Assembly: GCA_032622095.1 (NCBI GenBank)
Contig: CP136061.1
Span: 171,745,107-171,809,106, forward strand
DNA from: Siphonodentalium dalli
Lineage: Eukaryota; Mollusca; Scaphopoda; Gadilida; Siphonodentaliidae
DNA: 64,000 bases
Direction of reading: 5' to 3'
Position 1 is the stretch's first letter. Each line of letters opens with the position of its first letter. The position numbers were made by a program, and so were the translations under genes. A model generated the notes under the pieces. The model was given only the letters and a program-made list of their open reading frames with translations. It was not told the origin of the DNA and ran no database searches. Positions 12,505-56,470 of the stretch are shown here, piece after piece.

Positions 12505-12559
<55 letters not shown>

Positions 12560-12647
12560 TTGATATCTTTAGCCGTATGGGTCTGGTCTAATAGGAAGTT
12601 CTTATCAATATGATAACACCAATTAAAGACCCATCAAATCTTTAATG

Positions 12648-12696
12648 TCGTACTAGCTTTCGGCTATACAGCCTTCGTCGGGTACATGAATGAACA
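12648..12696 (-). ncRNA. Hammerhead-ribozyme-like motif in Penelope copy 2
   Basis: Identical to the motif at 10691-10739 because it lies inside the tandem duplication; the same two deviations from the hammerhead core are present. Confidence 0.45.
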
Positions 12697-12968
12697 ATCA
12701 TTTGAAAATACACATTGATATACAGACAAACTTGTTTATCGCGTAACTATGACGTTAACGAATGTTACCTGAAAAAATTTGGCGCCAAATGAAAAATGGC
12801 GGGAAAACTTACAGGTGAAAGACGCGCCAAACATAGAAGCTACATGTGTAGCGTTGTGAAGAAAAGTCAATGCTTGAGTATATGGGAACTCATGTAGCTT
12901 AGAAGCAGTCCATACAATGTATAAGCATATTTTAGATAATGAGAGTTGGACCAAGGATAAATTGTAAA

Positions 12969-13863
12969 TTATGACCAACTCGCCATGAAACCACGGTCCT
13001 TATTAATGCCACGATAAAAACTTCCAAACAGTTCTATATGTTGTAATTCGGCCACACACGTCTCTTTCATGTCCGAAAGTCCACCTCTTAATACTTTGAT
13101 GCGGATGTCATCAGGTGTGTGTTGTGGTTGACAGAAATGTTCTGCTATGGGTAGGTTCAAGTCCCTGTTGTTGATGTTCTGCCTATGCCCCGTCACTTGT
13201 TTGCAGAGAGGTTGACCTGTTTCACCAATGTAATGCATTTCTGGACAATTTGCGCACGTAATGATATACACAACACATGAGAACTGGCCCACATCCTGGA
13301 ACACGCGCCCATTGCGCATAAGAACATCTGCCTTGTTAATTAACACACACATCCCACATCTCGGCCTGTTACATGGAAATGTACCATTGGGTGACTGTCC
13401 ACCAGAAGATGGTAGCTTGCTTGTTACTAATTTCCGCTTCAAGTTGGGTGGTTGCCTCATGGCGACAACCGGTCTTTCGTTAAACACGTTCCTGAGATGA
13501 AGGTCGCTCGTAATAATGCCATTCAGAGATGTAGTGATTGTGCGTAATTTTTCTAGCTGTGGGTGGTAGTTTACCACGAGGGGAACTCGATCTGATGATG
13601 TTTTGTCCCGATATTGAAGGAGCATCTCCCTGTCCAAACATTTCGCTTTTCCCAATTGTTTATTAATCGAACGTCAGTCGTATCCCAAATTCGAGAATTG
13701 TGAGCGTAGTTCACTGAGTTCACGGGGGAGATTTTCCTGAGAATTGATGCATTGGTAACGAATGCCTTGACTGTAGATAATGGCTTGTTTCGTGTGGTCG
13801 GGATGAAAACTAATGGGGTTTAGATATGAAAATCTGTCCGTAGGTTTTCTGAATACCTTTGTG
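12969..13863 (-). pseudogene. Penelope-like element C-terminus with GIY-YIG endonuclease, copy 2
   Basis: This is an exact duplicate of the 11012-11906 copy at a 1,957-bp offset, with the same in-frame TGA at 13676-13674 and the same substitution after the YIG motif. Shared stop and truncation show that the second copy arose by DNA duplication, not by a second retrotransposition. Unlike copy 1, this copy keeps the element's inverted end at 13871-13925. Confidence 0.85.
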
Positions 13864-13950
13864 AATAAAAATTAAATATTTGATGGGTCATTAATTGGTG
13901 TTATCATATTGATAAGAACTTCCTATATATATATATATATATATATATAT

Positions 13951-14561: not shown

Positions 14562-16670
14562 GCTAGTATGATATAAAGCACTCACGATGATCTAGTCCGG
14601 TTAGCATTCATCTGGTGTATAGAGTGTCAATATAAAAATTGGCGGCCAACTTGGACGCCATCTTGGATTTGATTACCTTCCTAATCTAGGATTTGAACGA
14701 TGTTTTACATTATCAGTGTCCCTGTACGATTCTACACAATATGACAAGGTAAACTGTGCTTTGTCAATGTATTTGGTGGACACAAACTGCGTGGACGCAT
14801 CTATGTGGTTATTTGTGAAATTGGGGGAGGGTTAAGTTTTTATGTTTACCCATACCATAGTATGGTAAACATAGTGTCGTTGCCCGGATTGACCACTCGT
14901 CGTTGGTCCGTCTGTCTGTCCGTCTGTCTGTCCATCTGTCTGTCCGTCTCTCTGTCCGTAGACACTTTACGAGTAATGCGATAACTCAAACATTTTTTAT
15001 CCGATCGAAACCAAATTTTTTATATGGGTTTCTCAGCCCAAAATACAGATCGAGTTCGAATTTGGGTTTGATCCGAGATTTTGTTACAGAGTTATGGCCC
15101 TTTTTCAACTTAGAATTCACGCATTCTGCCATAGCCCAAAATACAGATCGAGTTCGAATATGGGTTTGATCCGATTAATTTTAAAGGAGTTATGACCCTT
15201 TTTCGAAAAAATAATTGAAAAAAAAAATTTATTTAAATTTTTTTTTACTTTTAACTTTTATAATAATAATAATAAAAAAAATGTCATTGACATTTGTTTT
15301 CATTTATATATTGATGATTATGATAAAAGTTGATAAAAAGATTTCCAATGTGTCCCTTTAATTTTTTTTAAATAATTAAAAAGTTTTTAAGTTAAACAAA
15401 ATTGAAAAACTAACACCATTATAACTCTGTCAAGGGTACCCCGCATCACCACACCAAATTTGATTAAATCGGTCCAAAATCTTGTGATACGTAGTGGTAA
15501 CATTAAATCCAATTCACCAAATACTTAGCTATTGATAAGGCTATATTATTTTCTGATGTCTCTTATGCCAATGTGCAAATAATCTGATAAAGAAGGCTAT
15601 GGTATCTAATTTAAAATAAAGATTCAACAATAAACATCACATGATATTAACAGTAGACATCTCTGCTGCAGAGTTATATCTTCAGATGGTCTGATATCAT
15701 TATAATTGTTATTGGTTTAATAGAGAGGTCAGTGTTCAACATAAATAATTCCTGTGATATTTTGACAGCTCTGCTATATAATTGATATTAATGGGTCAGT
15801 GGTGAGGTTGCTTATCTGTATACTAGGACACATTATTATTGTAAACTTAAATTGGACTCTCTTAACCCAAGTATTCCATGTCCAGGTCACACCTACACAT
15901 TTAACCCATGGGCTTGCTGGCTGTGGCGGTTTAGCATTACAGATCCTGTACCAGTGCATTCTCTTATATAAATGCCAGTGACCCATAAATTCCAATAATT
16001 TGTGTTATGTACATTTGTCTATAATAGTACATAACAGTATACTCTATAATTCAACACCAAAACTCTCATTTATCCGATCATATTAAATTTTTATCGCCAA
16101 GGCATGGGTTAACATCTGCCGATCGTGATCGGCCTCTCGTTGTCTATTATGTCAATACTTGGAGAGATATAATGTAAGTAGGAACATCTTTATATAGGGA
16201 ATATCCTACCATTTCCAAAAGTATATAACTTGGAAATTTTTGGCAGATATATTATGTTTGTACAGAGTTGACACACAACACTTTGTCTGAATCGCCATGC
16301 ATTTTTGACGCGCATTACATTCTTTACCATGAAGTCACCAAATCAGAACGAAAGCAGGAAAATGATGTTGAATCTGATTAAGTGTCTTCATTCGTTCCAC
16401 AATTTGCAAATATGTTTACAATCTTTCCGATTTTGATGCCCTGTTAACCAGTTGGCTAATGCCTGTTAACCTCTGAAAATATGTCATTTTTAGGTAGGGT
16501 GCCCTATGAAACATTGTGAAAAGTTATATTTTGTCACCTATCTTGGCTCGGCGCCCTCTGAATTCTAAAACTAGAGTAATTTTCCCATAAGAAAATGATG
16601 GTCGCATAAATTCCCCCGATGTGCGATGGTCACCCCCCAGCACAGCTTAGACTACTGAGGATGATCAGCA
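14562..16670 (+). repeat. Dispersed repeat split by a 1.3-kb insertion
   Basis: 14562-14836 and 16140-16670 together match the uninterrupted inverted copy at 3262-4050. The break falls in the T run after 'gggttaag', and the right side resumes at 'tgtctattatg', corresponding to 'tgtcgattag' of the intact copy. No coding content. Confidence 0.75.
14840..16139 (+). mobile_element. Pearl/HINE-like element, family 2, complete copy
   Basis: It begins with an imperfect 27-bp palindrome (14844-14870) and a GTCT/GTCC tetranucleotide tract (14905-14958). Modules follow with 'gataactcaaacattttt', 'gatcgaaaccaaat', 'cagatcgagttcgaat' and 'gttatggccctttttc'. It ends with a perfect hairpin GCCGATC-gt-GATCGGC (16119-16134) and CTCTC. 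The interrupted host repeat has an intact paralogue (3262-4050), which fixes the insertion point in a T run. A terminal hairpin and T-T insertion fit Helentron-associated elements; no Rep-helicase is present. A second near-full copy is at 55054-56288. Confidence 0.65.
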
Positions 16671-20080: not shown

Positions 20081-22244
20081 GTAAGTGTTGTCATATTTTA
20101 ACAAGTCATCCTCTATCGTACTAAATACTCATGAATAACATAACTGTACAAAGTGCCATTTAATAAGTATTTGCACAAAAATAAGAAAAATCCTCTCTGA
20201 TTGTACAGTCGGGGGCGTTACCTCCGCCCAGCGGTGCACTTGTATTTATATACATTTAGCGAAAAAGCCACTTTTGTAAATGTATTTAAATCGAAAAGTG
20301 TATCGTGACAAAACCAGCCCAAAACACCCTTGGCAAAAGTTAACAGGAACAATTTCTTTATATTGAAACTTGATGATTTATTAAGTCAATCCTGCGCGAG
20401 TCCAAATGCGCCCAAAACATTACGCGTACCAATGACGCGGCGATGTAATTATGCGGTTGCAGTTATGACCTCTTGCGCGTTCAACGAGAAATAACTGCAA
20501 CTAGTCACATGGGCGCTGACCAATCGGAATGCTGGATTTAGTGATAATCACACATAGTATGTAAATATATTAGAATAATTCCTAATTTTGCAACATATTC
20601 ACTGGCACCGTAACGTGATGCACGTTCGGAATTGTGCTCATTTCGGGATTTTTTTTGTAGAATTGGCTTCAAATATAGCAGCAGTTTGCCGGTTGCATGC
20701 TGTGTATAATTTACAATTTAATCTCACCGAGTCTCATTCTCAACGACTTGGAGATTTCCGCTGTGCCGAGGAAAATTATTCAGAAATAGCTATATGTGTA
20801 TAAGTTTCTCACAATACATAATTATTACATTACATTACTTATATTTACTCAAATTAACGCTGCATGGGAGGTCAGGTTACTACGTTTTCACATTTTTGCG
20901 ACCAGTAACAAGTATATTCGGCATCGTCGACGGCACGAGACATTATAGTGTGCGCAAATAAAAGACACGAAAAAGTCGCAAAAAAACACTGGCAGAAGAC
21001 ATCCAGATACAGAAAGTTTCATTCACTAAACAGTTGTCTTAACTTTGAGACGGAAATCATTCATTAAAGATTTAAAATGTGCTTTCATTTCCATGAATTA
21101 GAAATTTAGACAGTTTCGCGATAGACTGGCCATGGTCCTTGCTTTTGTTCCCTGAAAAGATGAAAACGTAGCAATTTGACCCTTTCTGCCAAATGAATTT
21201 GTAAATAACTCGCGTTTACGGTTAAGGTGGTGCATGTGTATGCTTGATTAATAATCCATTAACCAGCTTTGTTGCAAAAACAATATTTCATTGAATTAAC
21301 TGTTAATTTGGTCGTATGCATGTGCCATAACTATTTTTCATATTTTTTTAATCGGAAGTTTAATAATATAATTCTATCCAATTCTATCCAATTCTAACCA
21401 ATGTCAATCCTCTTAAATTCTATAACTATTCAACACTGTTACCACCGCCTTAACATGGTGTGCATGTACATAACATTATTATAAAATGTCGTTATATGTT
21501 ACAAATGCATTAAATGTACCAGTTTGTTAGAAATTGTCAAATTAGATAGAATTCAATATAGTATGTTATATGCTATACAAATTAGTTTGCTTCGTTTTCT
21601 TTACCGACATGACTACTTTGGGGCCCCAAAACTAGCACTGTACTGCAATAAAAACAATAGACACCGTTCGCAGAATGTATACGACGACGAATAAGAATCA
21701 CTAATGAGTACTATAATTATACGTATATATATAGTTAGAATTTGTGTTTTTTTTCTATTTGTCGCCCGTTTGCAATCTCCTCAATTATTTACTCCATAAA
21801 TATAAACTCGCCATGGATACCTGAACCACAAGTAAAACATATATTGTTTGTATGCTATCTATCTGTTGTATATATATTTATGTATCTATATGTAATTTTA
21901 TACAAAATAACTGGGATGGAGGAAATAAAGCATTAGGGGTTCTCAGAAAAAAACTGACAATTACATCACATATAGTAATGATTTTGATATTGTTTCTATA
22001 GTTGTCTCTGCGACTATCCATGTTCTTGAATTGCAATCACCATGTGGACTTAATTTCATCTCTTAATTGTATATCTATAATCAATTAATCGGAGTCGGCA
22101 ATTTTGCGAAAAGTTTACTATGGTGTACAACGATTATAGCTATCCCTGATTCTCATCCTCCGTCGTTTACTATATATGCGAACTATATAGCGGAAGCCAG
22201 AAGTTGTTTAAATATTGCATACATGTAATTAACTACTCCTTTCA
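20081..22244. other. Non-coding, no recognised feature
   Basis: No family-level protein match, bounded element or array of note was found; short frames here are AT-rich and unconvincing. Confidence 0.5.
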
Positions 22245-22345
22245 TCTTTCCACATTCCTAATCACTCCATTGACTGTAAAACATGAAATAATTCCCTTTC
22301 CTAGTTGAGCTACAGTGTCATTGACACTTCCATTTAGATTACTGT
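22245..22345. repeat. Short dispersed repeat, copy 1
   Basis: 'tccacattcctaat', 'tgaaataattcccttt' and 'ttgagctacagtgtcattg' recur in the same orientation at 36850-36950, about 88-90% identical by eye. No ends are defined. Confidence 0.7.
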
Positions 22346-29693: not shown

Positions 29694-30006
29694 ACTACGA
29701 CAGTCAAACTTCCAGGATGTATCTATTGTATACCGATGTACCTGCTAGCGCATTTCACTCGCTCCTTCATTAGCCTGTTTGAATTTGACGGGAATATTGG
29801 AGAATTTCGAGTTTTGCCATATATCTATGGCAGGCTGTGTTCATTTGCATGTAGTACGTATTACGCTATATCGCGTCGCCACTAGTAAACCCTTTGCTCT
29901 GAAACTTAAGAAATCGCACCAGAGTTGGGCATTGATACCCCATATCACACCCGCTCATCAGCAAAATTGTAACTCCGTATTTTATATTTTGAAGTATTTT
30001 TCAACT
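29694..30006. other. Non-coding
   Basis: Nothing recognised between the piggyBac MITE and the tandem duplication. Confidence 0.4.
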
Positions 30007-32846
30007 ATGCTCATTATAAAATTGCTAAGAACGCAAATAATAATAGAGAAAAATAAAAATCACATAAACAATATACTTCCATGTAAAACATGGAAGTATA
30101 ATAAGGGAATCGCGCGGAATTGATTGGTATGTCGATAGTACGGTTTCTTGACATTTCTGTGTTCAGTTGGAACGTTCTGGTATGACCCCCACCCATACCT
30201 CGGAATTAGGTGACGCGGGTAGAAAAGTCACCATATCTCGCCCAATTTTCGAGATATCGAGCTAATTTTTGCGTGATTGTGTTCGCAATTGATGCCCCTT
30301 TATTATATAGTAGGGTTTTAGTAAGATATTGTGGCGATATTCTACTATGTAGGCCTATATATATGCTGTTCAGTATATACATTTCGATTATCTCTGGCTT
30401 TCATCGACATAATACGGCAAGTAGGTAATCGTTTAGAAGTACTAGAAATTCCCCATCGAATGACACCAAAAAAGTGACGATTGGTTGTAGGAATTTAAAT
30501 CCATAGTGCATCTTGTGTAAACTTGATAAGAATTAATGGGCCACAATTTCTACATTTTTCAACCGATTTACAAAATTCTTTCTGGAGTACTCTCAGAACG
30601 TCCTATAGATACTTCACAACAATTTTGGTTCGAATCGGAGACGACAAAAAAATTACAATTTTTGCCCCCCTCCCTAATAGGGACAAATATTTTTGGATCT
30701 TGGTAAAAATTGCACCAGTTCGTCTTCTCTCTATGAATAACACGCTCACATAAACAAAATCCTGCTCATGTGCGTCGTCTAGGAGGAGTTGTGGTCACAA
30801 CCACTTTCTCCTCAGCCAATGTATGAATACAATTTTCGATGGTCTGTAACTTGGACATTTCTCAACCGATTTACAAAATTCTTTCAGGAGGATCATTAGT
30901 ACGTCCTAAAGATACATGGTAGTAAAAATGGTTGAAATCATAGCAAAAAAAAATTGCGAAAATTTCGCTCCCACCCTAACCAAAAAATGTAAGTCCGACC
31001 CTGTCCAAATTATTTTTGTGAAGTATATTGACAACGGCCAGCACTACCATAGAAACTAAATCCAGCTATCTTTCTTGCTATGTGAGAACAGGCGATCAGA
31101 AGATTTCGAGGTTGACATATATATGGGAGATAACTCTGGAGAGGAAAGACGGACAAAGTTTTTGATGTGCTCATGATTCAGTGGATATCAAGATGTATGT
31201 ATCGACCTAATTTCAGTGCTGTACTCCTTATATTTTCGGAGTTCTGAAAACACCAATTGTTCACATAAAGGGAGATAACTCTGCAAATCGAGTGAGGACA
31301 TGATTCTCAATATGCCTAAGCACTAGAGTTTGTATACATATATATACATACAAACTTTTAGCTTTCTAACTCTTGTATTGACTGAGCTATGCTCATTATA
31401 AAATTGCTAAGAACGCAAATAATAATAGAGAAAAATAAAAATCACAAAAACAATATACTTCCATGTAAAACATGGAAGTATAATAAGGGAATCGCACGGA
31501 ATTGATTGGTATGTCATAGTACGGTTTCTTGACATTTCTGTGTTCAGTTGGAACGTTCTGGTGTGACCCCCACCCATACCTCGGAATTAGGTGACGCGGG
31601 TAGAAAAGTCACCATATCTCGCCCAATTTTCGAGATATCGAGCTAATTTTTGCGTGATTGTGTTCGCAATTGATGCCCCTTTATTATATAGTAGGGTTTT
31701 AGTAAGATATTGTGGCGATATTCTACTATGTAGGCCTATATATATGCTGTTCAGTATATACATTTCGATTATCTCTGGCTTCCATCGACATAATACGGCA
31801 AGTAGGTAATCGTTTAGAAGTACTAGAAATTCCCCATCGAATGACACCAAAAAAGTGACGATTGGTTGTAGGAATTTAAATCCATAGTGCATCTTGTGTA
31901 AACTTGATAAGAATTAATGGGCCACAATTTCTACATTTTTCAACCGATTTACAAAATTCTTTCTGGAGTACTCTCAGAACGTCCTATAGATACTTCACAA
32001 CAATTTTGGTTCGAATCGGAGACGACAAAAAAATTACAATTTTTGCCCCCCCTCCCTAATAGGGACAAATATTTTTGGATCTTGGTAAAAATTGCACCAG
32101 TTCGTCTTCTCTCTATGAATAACACGCTCACATAAACAAAATCCTGCTCATGTGCGTCGTCTAGGAGGAGTTGTGGTCACAACCACTTTCTCCTCAGCCA
32201 ATGTATGAATACAATTTTCGATGGTCTGTAACTTGGACATTTCTCAACCGATTTACAAAATTCTTTCAGGAGGATCATTAGTACGTCCTAAAGATACATG
32301 GTAGTAAAAATGGTTGAAATCATAGCAAAAAAAAAATTGCGAAAATTTCGCCCCCCACCCTAACCAAAAAATGTAAGTCCGACCCTGTCCAAATTATTTT
32401 TGTGAAGTATATTGACAACGGCCAGCACTACCATAGAAACTAAATCCAGCTATCTTTCTTGCTATGTGAGAACAGGCGATCAGAAGATTTCGAGGTTGAC
32501 ATATATATGGGAGATAACTCTGGAGAGGAAAGACGGAAAGTTTTTGATGTGCTCATGATTCAGTGGATATCAAGATGTATGTATCGACCTAATTTCAGTG
32601 CTGTACTCCTTATATTTTCGGAGTTCTGAAAACACCAATTGTTCACATAAAGGGAGATAACTCTGCAAATCGAGTGAGGACATGATTCTCAATATGCCTA
32701 AGCACTAGAGTTTGTATACATATATATACTAACTCTTGTATTGACTGAGCTATGCTCATTATAAAATTGCTAAGAACGCAAATAATAATAGAGAAAAATA
32801 AAAATCACAAAAACAATATACTTCCATGTAAAACATGGAAGTATAA
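30007..32846. repeat. 1.37-kb tandem duplication, two copies plus a 95-bp third start
   Basis: Copies begin at 30007, 31389 and 32752 with 'tatgctcattataaaatt' and carry the small hairpin 'acttccatg-taaaa-catggaagt'. Copies 1 and 2 are about 99% identical, with single-base changes and a deletion of ~18 bp near 32727. The third copy stops right after the hairpin at about 32846. The unit repeats 'gggagataactctg' and 'caaccgatttacaaaattctt' internally. No protein family was found. Confidence 0.9.
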
Positions 32847-33544
32847 TTACATACTCGTCCATATACGTACCGACCCGATTAACACAGAATGAATGCGATA
32901 TTATATACATATTAAATGTCAGCAGAGTAAGATTCAGTCATACTGTATGGAGTCATTGCTGTATATAATATGTCGCCGATAAGTATACTATTGAGTTTTG
33001 ACGGCATGACTGAATCAAGAAAATATTAACCTTAGTAACTAAGGTGTGACTAAGGTCAAACTTAGTTACTTTTGGCTACGTTAGTCAAAAATAACTAAGT
33101 TACAGGTTGACTAAGGCTATGACTAAGAAACAACGTGGCCTCCGATGTATATATAAACAAAATACGGTAGCCTATACCTCGCCAGCAATGTAAATGGAAT
33201 TCATAATTGTAATGTTTGTGCTTTCATTGCTTTGTATAAAGTGAACTCGACTGTAATATATTATATACCGTACCGGTAATCAAATGCTATGAACAGCGTT
33301 TGGTCCGCGATGTGCATGTGAATTTAATAGACCTAGGCCTACGATACCGTATCGCACAATTTCACGTTCCTACAATGGTCAACGTCTACATTGAACAAAC
33401 ACTAACACAAATCAAAATATTGTGTTAACTAAACTTATTGAAGACCTAAAGTGACATGTACAAACATGACTGTGACTCCGTACAAATGCTGAAACTTTAT
33501 GGGCACCATGCATAAAACAACATTTCTCCGCTGATTCCATCGGT
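32847..33544. other. Non-coding with a short CTAAGG/CTTAGT word array
   Basis: 33025-33130 holds degenerate copies of 'gactaaggt' and 'aacttagtt' in both orientations, similar to the array at 26278-26400. The rest shows nothing recognisable. Confidence 0.5.
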
Positions 33545-36724: not shown

Positions 36725-36845
36725 CCGTATTTCACGGGCTACAGGTCGTACCTTTGGTCGGATCATCATGAAATTTGTCATGGATGTTAAAAATGACATG
36801 GCTGCCAGTGGCCATCTTGGATTTTACTCTTTGCATAACTAGACG
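36725..36845 (+). repeat. Fragment of the family 1 module repeat
   Basis: Contains 'gggctacaggtcgtacc', 'atgaaatttgtcatgga' and 'gccatcttggattttac', matching modules at 9480-10440, with an internal deletion. Confidence 0.7.
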
Positions 36846-36849
36846 TTTC

Positions 36850-36950
36850 AAATTTCCACATTCCTAATGACTCCTTTGACTGTAACACATGAAATTATTC
36901 CCTTTCCAAGTTGAGCTACAGTGTCATTGACACTTTCATCTACAAACTGA
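36850..36950. repeat. Short dispersed repeat, copy 2
   Basis: Partner of 22245-22345. It lies directly after a fragment of the family 1 module repeat (36725-36845), so it may be the tail of a truncated element. Confidence 0.65.
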
Positions 36951-37995
36951 TTGCCATTTGGTATGGTAACCACTAATATTTCTCAATTAGTACTCCGGTT
37001 AGAGTATATAGACCGGCCCCCAGATGAGGGTAGTATCACACGAAAGGGTAGAAATTTTGACGCTATCTCCAATTATCCTTGCCCCATGGGGGTTCCAAAA
37101 CACTGAGGTATCCAGGGCGGAGCAGGTGGAAAATAATTTTGTTTGACCTTTTTAGTGTTTTTGACCTGCAAATTTCAGTATTATCAGGAAAACCAATAAA
37201 ACAAGACAAATGTCGAATAAATATACTTGAATATCAGATATTAATCTATCTGGGTTGCTTAACATTACTGATGTGCAATAAATGATATTCTCCAACAATT
37301 TTTGTGAAAAATTCACGAAAATGCCAAAAAAATGCATAAATTGCAGTGCTTTTTAAAAAAAAAATTCCAGAAGATTTTCTATAAAATTTTCATTTTTTGG
37401 TATAAAGCTCTCAGTGTTACATCAAAAATTTCAGCATAATATACCTGATTCACTGATATCAACAGGATAACCACTGATATCCAACAAGCCGAGATATTTT
37501 CAAAAACTTAACCCTCCCCCCAAAAACTGATTTTTTATCTGAAAATACCTGTCATGTCAGAATAGCCCGTTTTGGTTCCGTTTTTTTAACCAATTCAGAG
37601 TCTTATCATATATCATGGAATTATAATTTATCTGAGGAGGTTTATTTTATGGGAGAGTCTATTTTGTTTAAATATTTGATTTTATTTGGGTAAATTAGCT
37701 AAAATTTAATTATTTTTAAGTAAAATATTACTGAAATTCCCATGACTTCATCAGTTTTATGGATACAGCTGCAAAATATGCACCACAATAAGCATAAATT
37801 CATCCCCAGTACCAGACATGAAATTCTATAATCATGTACCAGACCAGAAATAAGAAATAAAGTTAAACTTAACCCTACCCCAAGATAGTGTTCTTAATGC
37901 TTTCAATTCTATGCTATATGCTACTCAACTCGAAACTGGTCACCAGACTAGTGGATATAATTCATACCATATATTGCAATAGTACTGCCCACGGA

Positions 37996-38580
37996 TTATA
38001 CAATCTCATCTTCACTGTCACTGTCAATTTGTTCAAATGTGATGGTATCAGTCAATAGAATTTCTATGCAACATCTTCAGGAAAGATTGGTTCAAACAAC
38101 TCAGGTTGCCTATATAGGCCGTCCATCCATGAAGTGCTACATCGGGAGTGGTTGATTTGGCAATGGTTGCAAGACACCACTGTTTTGGTATCATGTGGGC
38201 TCGTTTGAAGTGTAGAATTAAAGATTCCTTACATGGTGGAAGTGCAGAAAGATCAACTACCTTCTACTGATTTTCAAACTTCTGCTGGAACATTACCCAC
38301 CTAGCTTAATTCACTTTTCTCGAACGTTGACCATATATGTATAAGGCACATGTTAACTTCTCGATTGTATTAAGCTGTCACTGTCCAGAACCCAAATCAT
38401 TCCTAAATAAGCCATGAATTCCATATATTTTGATCATCTTTCCAGCAACTTCCAGAAGTGTTTTTTTCCTTTTCGGAAAACGATGAAAGGTAATTATAAG
38501 ATATTGCCCCAGAGTGCCCCGCAATCGCTTACAAGTTGTGTTTGATGTATAAAATTGGCTATTCTGCCTTCTATACATTG
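37996..38580 (-). pseudogene. PIN/FEN-like nuclease-family remnant, arm A
   Basis: Minus-strand segments in more than one frame give AGKMIK, a weak version of the cysteine and Leu-Pro-Pro domain seen in arm B, and an acidic C-terminus ending IDSDSEDEIV-stop at 37996. I recognise this as a widespread, uncharacterised invertebrate family, usually predicted as single-exon proteins with acidic motifs spaced like those of PIN/FEN nucleases. Several frameshifts and stops are present. Sequence upstream (38581-38790) is shared with 7535-7755. Function is unknown; the nuclease link is inference. Confidence 0.55.
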
Positions 38581-39169
38581 AACACTAACATGTCTGAAGC
38601 ACCTTGGTTAATTTTTACTTAATTTGTCACCACTGACATTACCCGAAATATTGGATGTTTCTCTCACAAACTTGACATAAATATCGAAAAAAAAAGGTAA
38701 AATGTAACTATCTTTGGTATGAAAGGTGTTTATTGTTTTGATCTACCTTAAATGTGTCACATTAATGTGTTTATAAACCAAATTACTCAAAATGGCTTCC
38801 AAAATGGCAACCATTTTTTACATATATCACGAACATTATTCTCTGCTGTTCCGAAAATGTAGCAAATTGTGTCCCACTTGGTTATTATACATGTTAGCTA
38901 ATCAACTGACAACTAAATGTTCTATTCTGGTTGTCCCATTTCCTTATGGGGCATAATAAATTAATTTTAAAGTTGCCTTATGGAATTTTGTCGAGAACCT
39001 CTTTTGGGATACTGGCTATATTTGTTTTTAATAAATGGGCAGAACTTTGAAACGGAATTGAAATGAATCATAATCTGTGGCTATTCTGGCCTATTAGGAT
39101 AAAAATTGATCAACTTGATACAGCATGCAGGTCAAGATGGCAACCAGATAGTTGTGGTCATAGGAAGAT
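38581..39169. other. Non-coding, left flank of the central minisatellite
   Basis: 38581-38790 matches 7535-7755 in reverse. The rest holds no recognised feature. Confidence 0.45.
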
Positions 39170-40410
39170 GTGAGTATGTATGTATACAGGGAGTTATTGT
39201 ATGGTCATGAATGATGTGAATGGGTATACATGTTTATCTATATGTTCTTGAATGGGGTGGCCATTGTGAGATGTATGGGTATACAAGGAGTGAGTGTATG
39301 GTCATGTGTGAGGTGAATAGGTGTACAGGGAGTGATTATATATAGTTATATGGTTATGTACAGGTGTACGCAGTGTGGCTGTATGGGCATTGGTGTGGTT
39401 TATGTTAATAACGAGAGTAGCTACATGGTCATATGTGGGTTTGTGTATCTATGGAGTGACTGTATGGTCATGGGTGGGGTGTACAGGTGTAACTTGTGTG
39501 GTTGTATTGTCACAGGTGGGTGTATATGTATACATGTGTTGTCTGTATGATCATGGGTGGGGTGAATGGATAAATAGATGGTCATGTGTAGATGTATATG
39601 TATATAACGATTGGCTATATGACTATTGATGTGGCAAACAGGTATAGAGTGAGTGACTGTATGAGGTGAATATATTTTCAGGGAGTGACTGTGTGGCCAA
39701 TGGTGAGGTGAACAGGTATATAGAGAGTGACGGTATGATTATGAATGTGGTGAATAGGTTGTGACTATATGGTCATGGGTCAGGTGTAGGAGTATACCTG
39801 CATTGCTGTATTGTCATGTGTAGGGTGTAAGGGTATACACAAGTATGGTTGTATGGTTATGGAGAGGTATGTGTATAAAGTGAGTGGCTATATCACCATT
39901 AGTGAGGTGCATATGTTTACCTGGAGTGATTCTATGGTCATGGTTGGGGAGTATTTGTATATCTTGCGTGGCTATTTTTAGGTATACAAGGATTGACTGT
40001 ATGATCATGAATGATCATCACCTGGTGTGCCTGAATGGTGACTCATGGATGTACGTGTATAAAGCGAGTGGCTAAATGGCCTTTGACGAGATGCATATTT
40101 ATACCTGGAGTGACTCTATGGTCATTTAATAAGGGGTATATATGTCTATCTTGAATAGCTATTTGGCCATAGGTGTGTCGAATAGGTATATGGGGATTGA
40201 CCGTATAGCCAACGGTGAGATGAATAGGTATACAAGGATTGACTTATGATCATGAAGTTGTGTATAGGTATACATGGAGTGACTATATGGTCACGGGTCA
40301 GGTGTATGTGCATAGATTGAGTGACTAACTTGTCATTGGTGTGGTGTTTATGTGTATATATGGAGTGACTGTATGTTAGTGGGTTGTTTGTACTTGTGTA
40401 ACCTGAGTGG
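39170..40410. repeat. Degenerate minisatellite, ~45-60 bp units
   Basis: More than 20 diverged units around the consensus words 'tggagtgactgtatggtcat', 'gggtgaggtgaat' and 'aggtatacag'. G/T-rich on the plus strand. The open frames across it are artefacts of the repeat. Confidence 0.75.
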
Positions 40411-40469
40411 CTATCGCTTTCCACAATAACTCTAGGACATATTAATCAATAGAGAGGTAATGTCAGAGA

Positions 40470-41091
40470 GTTCTCCATCTTGATGGCATTTATGCACAAT
40501 GGAGGAAACGTTAAACCCCCTGACAATAGTCGATCAAATTTGATTCAAGTCGGTGATATCGAGATGTCAAATATACAGAAGAATGCAAGTATTGGGTTCC
40601 ATTCCTTCACGGGTAATGATTACCTTCCAAAAAGGAACTTTTCTGGAAGTTGCTGGAAATACGATTAAAATATATGGAAGTCATGGCTTATTCAGGAATT
40701 AATTGGGTTTTGGACAGTGACACGATTGCTACACTCGAGGAGTTAGCATGTGCCTTATATGATCAACGTTCGATAAAAATGAATCAAGCTAGGTGGATAA
40801 TGTTCCAGCAGAAGTTCGAGAATCAACAGAAGGTGTAGTCTTGATATTTCTGATATGTGAGGAATCTTTAATTCTATAGTCAAAACGAGCCAACATGATA
40901 GCAAAACTGTGGAGTCTTGCAACCGTTGCCAAATCAACCACTCTTGATGTAGCATTTCATGGATGGATGGCCGATAGGCAACCTGAGTTGTTTGAACCAT
41001 TCTTCCCTGAAGATGTTGCACATGAATCCTATTGACTGATACCATCACATTTGATGAAATTGACAGCGACAGTGAAGATGAGATTGCATAG
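40470..41091 (+). pseudogene. PIN/FEN-like nuclease-family remnant, arm B
   Basis: Plus-strand fragments read, in order: LIQVGDIEMSNIQ, GFHSFTGNDYLP (the family's HAFTGxD motif, about 40590-40625), a KYMEVMAYSGINWVLDSD segment, LEELACALYDQRS and RWIMFQQKFENQ. After frameshifts come LPPCKESLILHFKRAHMIAKLW, GWMADRQPELFEPFFPEDVAHE and an acidic tail ending IDSDSEDEIA-stop at 41091. This matches the C-terminal half of the same family as arm A; the N-terminal acidic motifs are missing. Most frames are broken, so it is not functional. Confidence 0.6.
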
Positions 41092-42379
41092 GCAGTACTA
41101 TTTCAATATATGGTATGAATTATATCAACTAGTCTGAATGACCTTTCAAGTTCAGTAGCATAAAGCATAAAATTTAAAGCATTAAGAACACTATATCTTG
41201 GGGTTGGGTTAAGTTTTACTTTATTTCTTAATTCTGGTCTGGTACATGATTATAGAATTTCATGTCTGGTATTGGGGATGAATTTATGCTTATTGTGGTG
41301 CATGGTGTGCAGCTGTATCCATAAAACTGACAAAGTCATGGGAATTTTTCAGAAATTGTTTACTTAAAAATAATCAAAATTTTAACTAATTTACCCAAAA
41401 GAAATCAAATATTTAAACAAAATAGACTCTCCCATAACTAAACCTCCTCAGATACATTCTAATTCCATGATATATGACAAGACCCTGAATTGGTTAACAA
41501 AACGGAACCAAAACGGGCTATTCTGACTTGACAGGTATTTTCAGATAGAAAATCAGTTTTAGGGGAGGGTTAAGTTTTTGAAAATATCTCGGCTTGTTGG
41601 ATATCAGTGGTTGTGATGTTGATATCAGTGAATCAGGTATATAATGCTGAAAATTTTGATTCACCACTGAGAGCTTTATACCAAAAAATGAAAATTTTAT
41701 AGAAAATCTTCTGGAAAACTTTTTTGAAAAAGCACTGCAATTTATGCATTTTTTTGGCATTTTCGTGAATTTTTCACAAAAATTGTTGGAGAATATCATT
41801 TAGTGCACATCAGTTATGTTAAGTAACCCAGATAGAATAAATATCTGATATTCAAGTATATTTTATTCGACATTTGTCTTGTTTTATTGTTTTTCCTGAT
41901 TATACTGAAATATGTAGGTCAAAAACACTAAAAAGGTAAAAATAATATATTTTCCACCTGCTCCGCCCTGGATACCTCAGTGTTTTGGAACCCACATGGG
42001 GCAAGGATAATTGGAGATAGCGTAAAAATTTCTACCCTTTCGTGTGATACTACCCTCATCTGGGGGCCGGTCTAATAACACATGTAATGAGGGCCCACGT
42101 GTAGGTAAATAGCCAGTCGCTCGATTTGTGCGCCAAAATTGATTTTATGGTCTTATTTTGTTCCTCAAATGTCAGTGAATCCAAATAAAATGGTCTACAA
42201 TTTTTTCGTCCAACGGTTGCCATGGGAACGGGCCTTTGTCTGTCATAGAGAGCGTTGTGTGGTTATGTATATATATTTCGCGATATGTGCAGTTTGCATG
42301 GCTTTATCTTTCCAAAAATGGATAAATATGACGAAGTATGATGTTGGAATCGCTACAACAGTCGCATGTGATATAAAAC

Positions 42380-43165
42380 GGAGCTGTGCTGGTGCAGCAT
42401 TAAGCAGTACCTTATCCCATTCATGATGGAGCTGTGCTGGTACAGCATTAAACAGTACCTTACCCCATTCAAGATGGAGTTGTGCTGGTGCAGCATTAAA
42501 CAGTACATTATCCATTTCATGACGGGAGCTTTGCTGATGCAGCATTAAACAGAACCTTATCCCTTTCATGACGGGAGCTGTGCTGGTGCAGCATTAAACA
42601 GTACCTTATCCCTTACATGACGGAGCTGTGCTGGTACAGCATTAAACCATGCCTTATCCCTTTCTTGACGGGAGCTTTGCTGGTGCAGCATTAAAAAGTA
42701 CCTTATCCCATTCATGACGGAGCTGTGCTGGTGCAGCATTAAACAGTACCTTATCCCATTTATGATGGAGCTGTTCTGGTGCAGCATTAAACAGTGCCTT
42801 ATCCCATTCAAGACGGAGCTGTGCTGGTGCAGCATTAGACAGTACCTTATCCCATTCAAGGTGGAGCTGTACTGGTGCAGCATTAAACAGGGCATTATCC
42901 ATTTCATGACGGGAGCTGTGCTGGTGCAGCATTAAACAGTGCCTTATCCCTTTCATGACGGGAGCTTTGCTGGCTCAGCATTAAAGAGTACCTTTATAAT
43001 ATCCCATTCATGACGGAGCTGTGTAGGTGCAGCATTAAACAGCACCTTATCCCATTCATGACGGAAGCTGTCCTGGTGCAGAATTAAACAGTACATTATC
43101 CCATTCATGACAGAGTTGTGCTGGTGCAGCATTAAACAGTGCCTTATCCCTTTCATGACGGGAGC
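42380..43165. repeat. 48-bp satellite, about 16 units
   Basis: The unit is 'gagctgtgctggtgcagcat' plus 'taaacagtaccttatcccat' and 'tcatgacg' (48 bp). Because 48 is a multiple of three, frames stay open on both strands and give 16-residue peptide repeats (for example CLMLHQHSSVLNGIRH on minus). The array abuts the pseudogene at 43170 with no gap. Confidence 0.9.
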
Positions 43166-43169
43166 TTAT

Positions 43170-44860
43170 CCCTCATCGAAGATCGCGAACGGAATTATGG
43201 AAAGCTGTGATGGGAACCCATTCTCCGGTGAACAGGAATTAAGAAACATCATGTCATCATTGGTTATACCAGAACCTGCTAAAACTGAGATTCTATCGCG
43301 TGACAAAAAGGGTGACGAAAAATATCAAACGTTCTTGAAAGACAAACTTCTATCTGGTTTGAAAGAAAATTCGATCTGGGATCGCTTTCCAAAACTGAAA
43401 CTCAAAACATTCATTACATGCAGCAAGAGAACTAATTGTGCCATGGGAAACAAATAGTTGGTTTGCGAGAGGAGCGGTAATTGCTCGCGAGATTTCTGGT
43501 CATTCAACAATCTCGTCCAACAATGTCAGAAAGTTTGCCGAAGCTATTTATTGGTAGGTATGAATTCTCGGTTGTTCCACGCTCCTTGTTCTCACCAGAT
43601 GGTTATGTTCTCATTACAAACGACAAAAATGCCATTTTGAACATCCTCGAGAAAGAAACATCTAATATTCAACTTAATTCAAGATAATCCCACGAATGGA
43701 CAACTTGCATGCATCATAGACGGAATGGTGGTCGTTCAGCAGCTCAAGAAAAATCCTTCTACTTCAACATTTGCTGATCTTGCTTCGATCTTCATCAAAG
43801 TTATTCGAAATAAAATAGCTCCTTACTCTGAGGTGAGGGTGATCTCCGACAGGTACATCAGCAACTCTCTGAAAGAGCGCACAATGCATAACAGATCATT
43901 GGCTGCGGGATCAGATCCCATAAAATACAAAATAACTGACTCGACAAACATGAAAACTATGTCTATGAAGTCATTGTTGTCTCGCATCGATACAAAGGCC
44001 CAACTCACCGAATACTTCACGGACAAACTTCTTCTGGCATTCAAGGATTGGTCCCAACGACTTGTTGTGGTAGCTGGCACTTTGGTGCGTGGGAACATGG
44101 CAGCCCAAATCAAGCCTGGATTGGAGGTGCACAGCCACGAAGAAGCGGACACATTAAATCCATTACATGTGCTGGATATAGGGGATAGTCACTGAATGCC
44201 TGATCAGTATTAATGCTATCCACCAATCCTTATAGGGGCTCACAAATGTAAGTGTTTGCTTGGTCTTCACGCGATCTCTGGAGCTGACTGGGGAGGCAAG
44301 TTTTGTAGCATAACGAAGAGAAGGTGGATGAATTCGTTCATGGGCATCGATGAACCCGATGATTCTGACATTATTGAAGGACTTAAGAATATTGGTACTT
44401 CTGCAGAAGTTGAGGACGGAACACGATCTGCCATTGAGAGTTTTGTTTGCCGCGTATATGAACCAAAGACAAAACAGAAATCTGTCAAAGACTTCAGATT
44501 GGAACTTTTCAGGTTCAAAAACCTCGAAGGCGAGAAGTTGCCACCAACACCGGGTACTCTTCAACTCCATATCTATCGGGCGAATTTCATATGCATGGTT
44601 TGGAGAGCATATGAGAAACCTCATCCGGAACTTCCATCACATTTGGATCACGACTGGGAGTCTAAGGATGGCAACAGTTTCGCGTCGGCGACACGGTCAA
44701 CTGAACTTCCTGCTCCAAAGAGTGTCTTGGAACTTGTTAAATGTGGCTGTAAAGGTCAATGTTCTCAAGTTCATCACTGTGTTTGTCTGCGCAACTCACT
44801 TCCGTGCAGTGCTCTGTGCAAATGTCACGACTGTCGCAACATGCCTAATATGAATTCCAA
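43170..44860 (+). pseudogene. PIN/FEN-like nuclease-family gene with CXC-type cysteine tail
   Basis: Collinear fragments: ELRNIMSSLVIPEP to FPKLKLKTF (43210-43412), ARFLVIQQS to SLFSPDGYVLITNDKNAIL (43483-43660, shifted frame), then VVQQLKKNPSTSTFADL, VISDRYISNSLKERT and HSHEEADT (44130-44153). Next come stops at 44193 and 44211, then KCKCLLGLHAISGADW (44241-44291), LPPTPGTLQLHIYRANFICMVW (44538-44603) and a cysteine-rich CGCKGQC...CVCLRNSLPCSALCKC tail (44742-44825) like Tesmin/CXC domains. EEADT and GADW sit where this family has acidic motifs resembling PIN/FEN active sites; that function is inference. At least two frameshifts and two stops make it a pseudogene. Its 3' end is joined to an antisense retrotransposon. 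Confidence 0.7.
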
Positions 44861-44865
44861 GTCGC

Positions 44866-45915
44866 TGAAGTCTATCTATCTGGTATTTAGGTAACCCAGC
44901 TAGAAGCGAATTACAGTAGTCGATTCTAGACAGAACTGTGCATGTTGCAAGCTTCTTCATGGCAGCTTCCGAGAGATAGGGTCGAAGACGACTAAGACGT
45001 CTAATCTCAATACACAGCGACCTACACACCTGATTCAACCGTGCTTGCATCAACAATGATTTGTTAATAACAACACCAAGATTTTTTGCACAATCTGCAG
45101 GATGAATACAGGTTCCATCAATATTGATGACAGGTATTGAGAAATCTTTGCAATTAACCGGTGGACAAAATAGCACTTCGGTTTTGGCATCGTTAAGTTG
45201 TAGTTTGTTGGCCAACATCCACGTTTTGACCGCACACACACACTGCTCCACGCGCGTTGCCAAAGTGGAGATGTGTACCGGTTGAACGGAGCTGTAAATC
45301 TGAGTATCGTCAGCGTACATGTGTACGTTCAGTTGGTGTTTCCTGACGATTTCTCCCACTGGCATTGTGTACAAAGTATATAAGATGGGGCCTAATACAG
45401 ACCTTTGCGGAACTCCATAAGAAACACTTTTGGTGTCAGAAACTAGGTCTCCAATGCGCACCATCTGGATGCAGTTCGATAGATAGGACTTAAACCATGA
45501 AAGTGCAGTTCCAGCGATGCCGAAAGATTCCGATAGCCGTTGGATGATGATTGAATGATCAAGCGTATCGAAAGCCGCCGATAGATCTAGCAGTGTAACT
45601 ATAGACGCCAGACGGTCATCTCGGGCATTAACGAGGTCCGATGTTATCCACAGAAGAGCCGTTTCTGTACTGTGGCTGGGGCGGTAGGCGGACTGGAATT
45701 TCTCAAACAGGTTGTTACTCACGAGGTGTTCCTGGAGTTGTTTGAGAACTAACTTTTCTAAGATCTTAGAAAGAAAAGGCAGGCCAGAAACAGGACGATA
45801 GTTCTTAAGATCGTTCCGATTAAGTCCTTTCTTTTTTATCAACGGTGTAATAACTGCTTTTTTGAAGCGATGAGCGAATGCGAGTAATTTTATCGCTGAA
45901 AAATGCCCCTTGCTT
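44866..45915 (-). pseudogene. Non-LTR reverse transcriptase fragment (CR1/L2-like)
   Basis: A minus-strand frame with KAVITPLIKK, NYRPVSGLPFLSKILEKLV, LLDLSAAFDTLDH (111-123), GVPQRSVLGPILYTLY (170-185), HMYADDTQIY (201-210) and LPKYQIDRLQRL: a Jockey-superfamily RT. GVPQR replaces the usual GVPQG. The 3' end is cut inside the coding region at about 44866, where the frame runs on into antisense of the PIN/FEN-like pseudogene. At the 5' side a FFSDKITRIRSSL block, normally well upstream of RT, is fused almost directly to AVITPL, so ~150 codons are missing. Confidence 0.8.
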
Positions 45916-46378
45916 CTTTTCATCCAGATCTTTTATAGTCTGCCATGCTTTTAACTCCTCCACCCATCGATTGTAAGGTTTCTTTGTAGTAAAGGCAGTA
46001 GGTACCTTATAGTTCACTGATGACGCCATTATTTATTGTCACTCAACACTGAAGCTAATACGCTAACACTTTAGTCAGTCACTCGCTTTTGTAACTTCTG
46101 CTAGAACTCTCTCATTTTACACTAATATCTTCGCCAATTGTCGCTATCACTGAATTACGCTCGCCGTTTTGTTGCACAGTTTATGTTCATTTCGTTCACT
46201 ATCACTGCTCGACAGCATTTCCTTGAAGCACACAGTCTTCAACCAAGTCCAGAGGGAGATCTTGTATCACTGCTACCATGTAGAGTTGGTCCCATTGACG
46301 TATATATATAAGACTCCAGCTACCTGTGGAGTAGACATAATAATAACATATAATACATATATAACATAATATCTGGTA
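45912..46378 (-). mobile_element. Ty1/copia-like LTR and gag start, truncated
   Basis: An ATG at 46029 opens MASSVNYKVPTAF, then KKPYNRWVEELKAWQTIKDL, typical of marine-invertebrate copia-type gag proteins. It breaks off after about 40 residues at KKQG, fused in frame to the non-LTR fragment. Upstream (46268-46278) TGGTAGCAGTG is a plausible initiator-Met tRNA primer site following '...ctctaca' at the LTR end (46279). A TATA-like run lies at about 46302-46311. The rest of the LTR ends at about 46378 in an L1 fragment. Confidence 0.65.
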
Positions 46379-51016: not shown

Positions 51017-54000
51017 CAGGGATGTGCTCACGCCGGGCGGCGCCGGGCGGGGGCGCCCACCACTCAAAACAATCGCCCGGGAGTCGCTACGTTTTCAAAC
51101 CAGTGCGCCCGGCACATTTTTACGATCACAACTGTACTCGCATTGTAAATTGTGCCGAGTTCTCTTGATGATAACGACGTCTTGCATGTCTGATAGCGAC
51201 GACATGTTGCCGTCTGAGGCATTTTTAATGCCTCATATAAAGCACGTGGGGAGCCTTAATTAATGAGGTGTCAAAAGGTCTGCGATGACCGGTGAATTTT
51301 ATTACAAAGAGCCGACATAATCAAATACTTTCCGCGCGTGCTGAGCCGTAGGCACGCGCTGGAGTTAAAAGTTCGGGGTGAATTTGAAACGTCCAGTTTC
51401 AATGATCCTAAGCCAAAACGATGTCGTTATTGAAATTTTTCACTCAAACTTCGAAAAGTAAAAAGCTGCCGGATGATGACAAAGCAAAACCTGTCGATAC
51501 TAACGTGACTGCATCTGGTAGCTCAGAATGCGATGGTTCCATTCAGAAAGAGAAGAGAAAACCTGTCGATACTGTTGCACCAGATACCGTTAGACCAGAA
51601 TGCGATGCTGTAATCCAGAAAGAGAAAAAGAGAAAGCTCCCATAATCTGAACAGACAGAACCAAAACGATCGAAGCATGCCACGTCATTTAAAACATCAT
51701 GGAACAAGGATAGACCGTGGCTACTGTACGTGACAGATGTGGGCATGTTTTGTGAATTCTGTCGGAAGCATGACATGCGGCCATTTGACCGCGAGACATG
51801 GAACAAACAGCCATGTAAACGCCTTCGCTTAGAGAGCATTGTGGATCACGAGAAGTCGAATGCGCACAAAATTGCATCCAAGCTTAGCGTCGATAAACAC
51901 CAAACGGACGTCAAGGAAACTATAGTTCCGTCGCTGTCAATGAACGACATGAGCAGAACTTTCGCATGCCTGTACTTCTTGTGCAAACAAAGAATTTCGC
52001 ATACAACAAACTTTGTACCTCTACTCGACCTCATGGACTATATGTCTCTGAATCTAAAAGAGAAAATTAGGATGGGGAAAAATGCACACTACACAAGCAG
52101 AAAGTCAATCCAGGAAATGTTAGCGTGCATATCGTCAGTAATCGAAGAAAACATCATGGAAAGACTTCGCTCATCAGTCAGTTATGCATTGATGTTTGAC
52201 GAAACGACTGATTGTTCTATTCAAGAGCAGATGATCGTGAGGGCACGCTATGTACATTCAGGTGAAATTGTGACCAAATATCTCAAGATTATTCAGCCAC
52301 TTGCATCATCCGATGGTTCAAACAAAGACCTCGTAGTTAGACTTGACGGCAAGAATATCGCCAAGAAAGTAACTGATTTCGTCAAAAGTAAAGATCTGTC
52401 ATTCCAGAAATTGAGAGCCATTGGTACAGATGGGGCCTCGACCATGGCTGGAAAGTTCAATGGCGCAGTTAAGCTGATTATAGATGAACAAGAAGCTGAC
52501 CAAACTAAATTTCCCGAAGTCGATCGTTGTAAGGCCATCGGATGTCACTGTGCTGCCCATAAGCTAAACCTGGCAGCGTCACAGGCAGGCGACAAAGTTC
52601 CATATATCAAGAAATTTAAGGACATAATTCGGCAATTATATGACTTCTACGACAACAGTGCCGTTCGTGCTGCTGGGCTAAAAGCTGTTCAGGATCTGCT
52701 AGATGAACCAGAACTAAAGGTGTTAGAACCCTTTTCAACACGATGGCTTTCTATTGGGTTATGTGTGGCTCGAATAAAGAAAACATTGGCCAGCATTATT
52801 ATCAGCTTGGAGAGAGAATCTGAAGAACGAGGTGATGCCAAAGCTGCAGGTCTGAGCACGTTTATGTCGGACTTTCAATTTATTGCCACTCTACTTTTGT
52901 TCTGTGATATTCTGCCCAAAATCAACCGACTGTCCAAAATATTCCAGGACAGTGAACTTGATTATGCTCTTGTAGCTCCCGTTGTGCAATCAACAAGAAA
53001 TCAAATCTCGAAAATGTCCGAAAGTGATTATGACGGTGACAACTTAAAAGAAATTTTGGCATACATCAATTCTTTGAAAGAAGCAGGTGTTAATGTAAGC
53101 TACAACAAACGAAATATTCGTGGAAAGGGTGACACTGAGAGTGAAATGGTGGACAAATATCGTGCTGACGTGAAGATTCCCTTCATTAACAATATTATTT
53201 CAAACTTGGATAACAGATTTACCGATTCCGGTGTAATTACTTCATTCAGAATATTCAACCCTTCTCATATGGACAAAGGAGATAAAGATTACGGAAAGAG
53301 CGAAATTCAGACCCTCATCAACCAATTTGGCGGCTATTCAGTTGATGAGGCAAAGGAAGAATGGGATGATTTTCGGGAATACATGGCATTGAACATGAAG
53401 AAGATGAATACTCGAGATGTTGTACGTGCTTTGACGGGGCATTCGAAAAACCCACTGAAAATGGTTTATCCAATAACATCACACCTGGCTGAAATATATC
53501 GAGTGGTACCACCACATACCGCAGACGTTGAGCGTGATTTCAGCCAGATGAAACTGATCAAATCATGTCTCAGAAACCGCATGGTGGAGGAAACGTTAGA
53601 CGCGGTCATGCGTATAGTAATTGAAGGACCGCCCCTGGAAGATTTCCCCTTCCACGATGCGGTTAAACTGTGGGCAGACGGAAAGAATAGGCGATTGAAA
53701 GTCCATTCCATGAAAGTGTGACGTAACTGAAGTTGTATAAACAAACATTGTAAATAGACGACACTGTGTATAGTAAAAAGAAGGAAATCACGTGGGAAAT
53801 ATGACATGACGCGATTAGTACTCAGGCGATGATTGGCACGTGTTCGTGTGACGCTGTTGTTAGTTCTCGCCAAGACAGCCTTTGATATAATGCCGCCGTT
53901 TCAGTTTAGTGTACCGGATTAACCTGTTAAATAATTGGATTTATATAAAGAATATGCAGAGGATTCTTATACCGGGTGAGTTACACTGACTTTCAAATTA

Positions 54001-54668: not shown

Positions 54669-56470
54669 AACTTTTTATGTGTACCCATACCATAGTATAG
54701 TTCACATAGTGTCAACGTCCGGATTGACCACTCGTTGTTCGTCCGTCAGTCTGTACGTCCATCCGTCTGTCTGTCCGTCCATAGATACTTGAGGCATAAT
54801 GCGATAACTCAAACATTTTCTATTTGATCGGAACCAAATTTTGTATATAGGTTTCTCAGTCCAAAATACGGATCGAGTTCGAATATGGGTTTGATCCGAG
54901 TTTTTTTTACAGAGTTATGGCCCTTTTTTTTACTTAGAATTCACGCATGCGGCCATAACTCAAACATTTTTTATCTGATTGACACCAAATTTGGTATGTG
55001 AGATTGTCAGCCCAAAATACAGATCAAGTTCGAATATGGGTTTCATCCAATCCTTTTTTATGTTTACCCATACCATAGTATGGTAAACATAGTGTCGTTG
55101 CCCGGATTGACCACTCGTCGTTCGTCCATCGGTCTGTCTGTCTGTCTGTCCATCTGTCTGTCTGTCTGTCCGTAGACACTTTACGAGTAATGCGATTACT
55201 CAAACATTTTCTATCCGATCGAAACCAAATTTTGTATATGTGTTTCTCAGCCCAAAATACAGATCGAGTTCGAATTTGGGTTTGATCTGAGATTTTGTTA
55301 CAGAGTTATGGCCCTTTTTCAACTTAGAATTCACGCATTCTGCCATATCTCAAACATTTTTTTTCTGATTGGAACCAATTTTGGTATGTCAGTTTCACAG
55401 CCCAAAATACAGATCGAGTTCGAATATGGGTTTGATCCGATTAATTTTAAAGGAGTTATGACCCTTTTTCGAAAAAAAATTTGAAAAGATTTCCAATGTG
55501 TCCCTTTAATTTTTTTAAATAAAATTAAAAAATTTGAAAAACTAACACCATTATAACTCTGCCAAGGGTACCCCGAATCACCACACCAAATTTGATTAAA
55601 TCGGTCCAAAATCTTGTGTTATGTACTGGTAAATCTGTTTGGAGCAACATAAAATCAATTCACCAATTGCCTTTGGACTACTTAGCTATTGATAAGGCTA
55701 TATTATTTTCTGATGTCTCTTATGCCAATGTGCAAATAATCTGATACATAAGGCTATGGCATCTAATTTAAAATAAAGATTCAACAATAAACATCACATG
55801 GTATTAACAGTAGACTTGGACATCTGTGCTGCAGAGTTATATCTTCAGATGGTGTGATATCATTATAATTGTTATTGGTTTAATAGAGAGGTCAGTGTTC
55901 AACATAAACAATTCCTGTGATATTTTGACAGCTCTGCTATATAATTGATATTAATGGGTCAGTGGTGAGTTTGCTTATCTGTATACTAGGACACATTTTT
56001 ATTGTAAACTTAAATTGGACTCTCTTAACCCAAGTATTCCATGTCCAGGTCACACCTATACATTTAACCCATGGGCTTGATGGCTGTGGCGGTTTAGCAT
56101 TACAGATCCTGTACCAGTGCATTCTCTTATATAAATGCCAGTGACCCATAAATTCCAATAATTTGTGTTATGTCCATTTGTCTATAATAGTACATAACAG
56201 TATACTCTATAATTCAACACCAAAACTCTCATTTATCCGATCATATTAAATTTTTATCGCCAAGGGATGGGTTAACATCTGCCGATCGTTATAGATTGAA
56301 CTCTCCTCGCTCAATTTAACACGCAAAAAATATTAAAAAACTTTTATAATAATAAAAAAATTATTTAATTAAAAAAACAATTTGTCATTGATACTAATTT
56401 GTTTTAGTTGTATACCATTAATTAGGTGCGATGTCCTATTTTGAAAATATGAAGATTTTATTGCAATAGT
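54669..56470 (+). mobile_element. Pearl/HINE-like family 2, outer copy split by a nested copy
   Basis: 54669-55053 has a diverged head palindrome and two modules. Its A/T-rich tail ('ttataataataaaa', 'tgtcattga') resumes at about 56289-56420 after the nested element, matching the tail of 14840-16139 at 15255-15310. The outer copy is therefore older than the inner one. Confidence 0.6.
55054..56288 (+). mobile_element. Pearl/HINE-like family 2, nested near-full copy
   Basis: Homologous end to end with 14840-16130: head palindrome 55062-55088, GTCT/GTCC tract 55129-55169, modules, and 3' unique part ending 'gggttaacatctgccgatcg'. It lacks the second arm of the terminal hairpin (GATCGGC) present at 16128-16134. 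Confidence 0.7.

Follow-up and report, generated by a model that had tools for sequence, protein, structure and literature searches.

A long inverted structure, hereafter the element, occupies positions 37009 to 42074 of a 64,000-nucleotide stretch of the Siphonodentalium dalli genome (contig CP136061.1 of assembly GCA_032622095.1), the whole of which is called the window below. The element is 5066 bp in length and consists of two inverted arms of about 1.46 kb each, a spacer between them, and broken coding pieces of a nuclease-like protein family that read toward the outer ends. Its main features, with coordinates in the window, are as follows.

37009-38478, minus strand: left arm, a long terminal inverted repeat with the tip TAGACCGGCCCCCAGATGAG (blastn and MAFFT of both arms); from the tip inward it holds an outer segment of about 1 kb without a recognized gene, followed by a C-terminal family fragment
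40625-42074, plus strand: right arm, an inverted copy of the left arm, ending in CTCATCTGGGGGCCGGTCTA
37999-38575, minus strand: broken piece from the C-terminus of the nuclease-like family, within the left arm and running slightly past its inner end, reading to the left end (translations and tblastn)
40537-41088, plus strand: broken piece from the C-terminus of that family, within the right arm and running slightly past its inner end, reading to the right end (translations and tblastn)
about 39172-40410, plus strand: degenerate minisatellite of the spacer, with repeat units of about 41 bp

The initial annotation had delimited a unit whose two outer ends start alike, and this description was upheld by direct comparison of the arms. 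The stretch 37009-38478 aligns with 42074-40625 at 89.2% identity across 1483 alignment columns (blastn), the homology ends within about 4 bp of the tips, and the GC-rich tips are exactly alike in both arms. The 20-bp tip TAGACCGGCCCCCAGATGAG was detected at exactly two sites in the window, which are the two outer ends, with up to three mismatches allowed and 0.00 matches expected. A search with 12 bp of the tip, allowing up to two mismatches, returned five matches against 1.27 expected, comprising the two element ends, a pair that counts once given a 1961-bp tandem duplication (see below), and one other. Identity between the arms declines from the tips inward. In the MAFFT alignment, the tip-most 100 columns are 98% identical, and 838 of the 890 aligned pairs in columns 1–900 are identical (94%), compared with 480 of 574 (84%) in columns 901–1500, a range that includes a few columns beyond the blastn arm ends and excludes the final 20-column block (6/12). 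Two full 100-column blocks of the inner arms have the lowest identity, 76% and 74%.

The two arms were also proposed to encode one protein family in opposite directions, which was confirmed, for fragments only, by a one-against-one blastp of the right-arm and left-arm proteins (68% identity, E = 3e-65), in which in-frame pieces were joined by X across the frame breaks. The right-arm fragment contains GFHSFTGNDY and has the C-terminus EIDSDSEDEIA, and in each arm the 3′ end of the family lies about 1 kb from the sharp terminus. In the left arm, compared with the right, 1 bp appears deleted and 2 bp inserted, and stops occur; the right arm, compared with the left, has a 4-bp deletion and a stop; and both carry the same apparent +2 frameshift, which the alignment places between PEDVA and ILLTDT. 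Substitutions were counted over three in-frame right-arm segments, with the frame breaks between them and 40537-40631 left out, and amounted to 49 at 428 sites, of which 23, 13, and 13 fell on codon positions 1, 2, and 3 (143, 142, and 143 sites, respectively; chi-square p = 0.13 for the uneven counts). Third positions show no excess, and hence nothing indicates that the genes were working while the arms diverged. Selection on the arm genes was considered and rejected on these counts. With their frameshifts and stops, one apparent frameshift being shared, and with no excess at third positions, the arm copies are non-working genes. The idea that the nuclease-like protein itself serves as a mobility or defence enzyme finds no support here, as only broken C-terminal copies with these same marks of decay are present.

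The spacer consists of the minisatellite, whose position between the arms agrees with the first description, and of unmatched DNA. At the inner side of the left arm, the sequence continues into a stretch that has a dispersed relative elsewhere in the window.

38501-38784, minus strand: inner extension of the left arm, absent from the right arm, 78% identical to 7549-7857
7549-7857, plus strand: dispersed fragment related to the inner extension, abutting a 304-bp tandem array

The initial annotation had reported a fragment of the upstream DNA of the arms at 7535-7875. The repeat is real over 7549-7857, but it matches the left-arm extension only and has no counterpart in the right arm. Tandem arrays at 42378-43166 (48 bp), 39172-40410 (about 41 bp), and 6682-7555 (304 bp) adjoin pieces of the nuclease-like family or lie within about 0.6 kb upstream of them, a proximity that may reflect chance or a habit of the element.

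A check for target duplications, suggested at the outset, yielded a short candidate immediately outside the tips.

37006-37008, no strand: candidate target duplication ATA, left side (flank reading)
42075-42077, no strand: candidate target duplication ATA, right side (flank reading)

The junctions between flank and tip read GAGTATA / TAGACC on the left and GGTCTA / ATAACAC on the right. Two random 3-mers of the window agree by chance with a probability of 0.019, and the pair ATA/ATA is a weak candidate for a 3-bp target duplication, seen at one copy only. The left flank holds dispersed repeats at 36735-36841, with relatives between 9484 and 12474, and at 36836-36942, which resembles 22230-22336, and the right flank holds the 48-bp array. 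No position in the window joins the left and right flanks of the element as an empty site would.

A further member of the nuclease-like family lies downstream of the element.

43062-44894, plus strand: separate, diverged, and broken member of the nuclease-like family, outside the element, formed by open reading frames (ORFs) of a single frame and longer than the arm pieces

The opening 105 bp or so of this neighboring member are still within the 48-bp array. Its C-terminal part is a cysteine-rich, CXC-like stretch that weakly matches the Pfam family TCR (Tesmin/TSO1-like CXC), scoring 16.6 bits against a cut-off of 23.5 (E = 0.0096). In one-against-one blastp run without composition correction, the neighboring member matches the arm pieces directly with E = 0.003 (right) and 1.4e-5 (left). 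These direct matches are weaker than those of an animal relative, which, used as a blastp query under the same settings, aligns with 43641-44891 over 395 columns (E = 7e-29) and matches the right-arm and left-arm pieces with E = 2e-5 and 8e-8, respectively. The putative family label of the arms and the neighboring member leans on this animal query. The protein family, which we presume to be widespread, unnamed, and multi-copy in animals, is represented by four related pieces in the 64-kb window. An ORF of a reverse transcriptase at 44796-45932 (minus strand) overlaps the 3′ end of the neighboring member.

The family had been likened to PIN/FEN nucleases. The order of the acidic motifs appears FEN-like, but no significant support came from Pfam, PDB, profile–profile comparison, or structure prediction. 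The neighboring member carries D27, D70, E167/E168, and D216, the DxD stretch being missing, and the animal relative has all five motifs (D5, D48, E104/E105, D131, and D190). Among 24 archaeal FEN1 sequences, the motif patterns occur at position 27 in 12, 80 in 22, 152 in 20, 173 in 11, and 236 in 15. The motifs (D, D, E, DxD, and GxD) were picked after the fact and carry no significance value. When the animal relative, the first half of the neighboring member, and a right-arm stretch were compared with Pfam, no family matched at E ≤ 10. Among PDB sequences, the second half of the neighboring member had one match only, to a petrobactin biosynthesis protein (E = 0.55), and a two-row profile had four, with E values of 0.54–2.9, none of them a nuclease. 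In hhalign against the 24 archaeal FEN1 sequences, the two-row profile, one row of which is the animal relative, scored 17.0, a value that 36 of 100 column shuffles also reached and that is not significant; such tests are shallow and leave room for a distant FEN relation. The non-significant alignment fell on the FEN1 stretch LVGTDY..G.GPKKA, the best alignment of the animal relative alone fell on FDG..PDLK, and the neighboring member alone aligned elsewhere in FEN1, over 9 columns only. We take both of these stretches to be FEN motif regions. Two AlphaFold2 predictions made without an alignment had predicted local distance difference test (pLDDT) values of 32 and 36, too poor to interpret. 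A FEN/PIN fold of the family, judged from its sequence, is plausible and unproven.

Searches beyond the window were directed at relatives of the protein. A short protein pattern matched 2, 12, and 42 stretches of viral contigs, none of which encodes a relative, and 31 stretches of prokaryotic genomes, none a relative either. Phages and plasmids yielded no relative of the nuclease-like family, and PHROGs gave two weak matches only, at E = 0.53 and 0.14, both to families without an assigned function.

With a little better than even confidence, the element at 37009-42074 can be read as a dead, non-autonomous DNA transposon of the foldback type, whose arms represent 1.46 kb from the 3′ end of a transposon encoding a nuclease-like accessory protein, most likely one of the AcademX lineage in the Academ superfamily. 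The foldback, or long-terminal-inverted-repeat, reading follows from the long inverted arms, the tips as their most conserved part, the variable inner arms, the internal tandem repeats, and the lack of a recognized transposase. The layout had been called unusual for a mobile unit, which it is, but it belongs to a known kind. We take the AcademX nuclease to be of the XPG type and the present protein family to be that nuclease. A FEN/XPG-like nature of the family, movement of the two arms as one unit, and mobilization by an Academ transposase are all inferred parts of the reading. Under this scheme, two 3′ ends of an autonomous element would have been joined in inverted orientation around a minisatellite spacer, through aberrant repair or a neighboring insertion, and both outer ends would then present the same binding site. 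An autonomous relative could provide, in trans, a transposase that binds these ends and moves the pair as a unit, with insertion leaving the 3-bp duplication ATA. The coding pieces within the arms would be passengers, and exchange between the arms, strongest near the tips, may have produced the gradient of identity.

Several results weigh against this reading. When the window was searched by tblastn with one Academ-type transposase fragment, nothing matched at E ≤ 1, from which it follows that the element is at best a non-autonomous derivative. No further copy of the element ends is present in the 64-kb window at up to three mismatches of the 20-mer. The exact tip DNA had no match in viral contigs, and in prokaryotic genomes the 20-mer had a single match, in an archaeal metagenome-assembled genome, that did not extend past the 20 bp. 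A 3-bp duplication alone is weak evidence of insertion, and the FEN/XPG fold is without statistical support from Pfam, PDB, hhalign, or structure prediction. The DNA likeness of the arms also fades at their inner ends, inside the coding sequence, with both sides keeping the coding family, as two separate copies would do as well.

Known systems offer partial parallels. AcademX elements are reported to have target duplications of 3 or 4 bp and AcademH elements of 9 or 10 bp, a difference related to the encoded helicase and nuclease, of which the nuclease appears to belong to AcademX (PMC10045372). A survey reports that Academ elements have expanded in bivalves and that their curated length averages 5565 bp (PMC10294476). 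The candidate duplication of 3 bp would fall within the AcademX range, and the length of 5066 bp is near the Academ mean. Unlike AcademX, the element shows no recognized transposase, only broken C-terminal family pieces, and two 1.46-kb inverted arms. The Drosophila foldback elements Tetris and Galileo are described as having long or variable terminal inverted repeats, internal tandem repeats, and non-functional or non-autonomous copies (PMC4079207, PMC4168063), and in variable-repeat elements of Galileo the ends are reportedly more conserved than the rest (PMC4168063), as is seen along the arms here. The element shares with them long inverted repeats with identical outer ends and internal tandem repeats; it differs in having its tandem repeat outside the arms, in the spacer, and coding fragments within them. 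Galileo, a member of the P superfamily, duplicates 7–8 bp, in contrast to the 3-bp candidate here. KolobokP elements are described as composite-like transposons, abundant in bivalves, whose long terminal segments come in pairs and which carry a nuclease as an accessory (PMC9587614). They have direct terminal repeats, 5′-RR ends, a His-Me finger nuclease, and membership of a TTAA-duplicating superfamily (PMC9587614), whereas the arms here are inverted, the ends begin with TA, and the flanks are ATA/ATA, so the element falls outside KolobokP. A literature search found nothing joining Academ, XPG, and transposon, Academ is absent from a transposon curation guide, and a search with the tip letters returned no transposon study by title among the matches listed.

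The main rival to the foldback reading is that two 5′-truncated copies of one transposon family inserted independently, in opposite orientation and 2 kb apart, and that the pair never moved together. This is possible, though we consider it clearly the less probable account. It sits well with the worst inner blocks of 76% and 74%, with DNA homology that stops inside the coding sequence, with a left inner extension that is common to 7549-7857 and absent from the right arm, and with the number of family-related pieces in the window, four in all. However, each copy must then have lost its opposite end and yet kept a near-perfect outer tip, and the 94% identity of the outer 900 columns and the matching ATA flanks are explained less well.

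An inverted segmental duplication that involved no transposon, or an assembly artefact, is improbable. Two tandem duplications, a perfect one of 1961 bp and another at 98% identity, do show that recent duplication or assembly doubling takes place in the window. The difference of about 11% between the arms, which follows a gradient, makes an assembly copy unlikely, and their homology stops at a GC-rich tip exactly common to both. Slightly more doubtful still is the view that TAGACCGG ends mark a transposon of a new type, with the nuclease-like protein as its mobility enzyme. In its favor, a sharp terminus follows some 1 kb beyond the 3′ end of the gene in either arm, and 64 kb hold four pieces related to the family. 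Against it, both arm copies are disrupted and have diverged with no indication of selection, and a nuclease accompanying a DDD/E transposase has already been described for AcademX (PMC10045372). The boldest version, in which a FEN/PIN-like nuclease with a cysteine-rich tail is the sole gene of a TAGACCGG-ended family and moves the element, the two-armed inverted units being the amplifying form, would be the most improbable of all.

The window contains several other repeats and mobile-element remains. The stretches 9972-11932 and 11929-13889 form the perfect 1961-bp tandem duplication (100% identity, no mismatch), which is either very recent or an assembly artefact; an (AT)n tract lies within it, as does a 234-aa ORF judged GIY-YIG-like by eye only. 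A second tandem duplication, of about 1.48 kb, joins 30005-31484 and 31387-32847 at 98% identity. The stretches 14837-16126 and 55055-56289 are dispersed copies of one repeat, with two aligned pieces that are 95% and 92% identical. Remains of non-long-terminal-repeat (non-LTR) retrotransposons, with endonuclease and reverse transcriptase, occur at 898-2529 and 44796-45932, both on the minus strand, and the non-LTR endonuclease matches the PHD finger weakly, with 22.1 bits against a cut-off of 24. An uninterrupted 691-aa ORF at 51646-53721 (plus strand) matches zf-C17orf113, DUF4371, and, weakly, the hAT dimerization domain, and is probably a hAT-type transposase gene.

The element at 37009-42074 is itself a dead copy with no functional sign. 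If the foldback reading is true, the element is a foldback-type offshoot of a DNA transposon that carries a nuclease, and it links a multi-copy gene family of animals to a transposon end of defined sequence. The tip TAGACCGGCCCCCAGATGAG provides a concrete end sequence for collecting autonomous copies, and many genes now listed as “uncharacterized” could then be annotated as parts of transposons.

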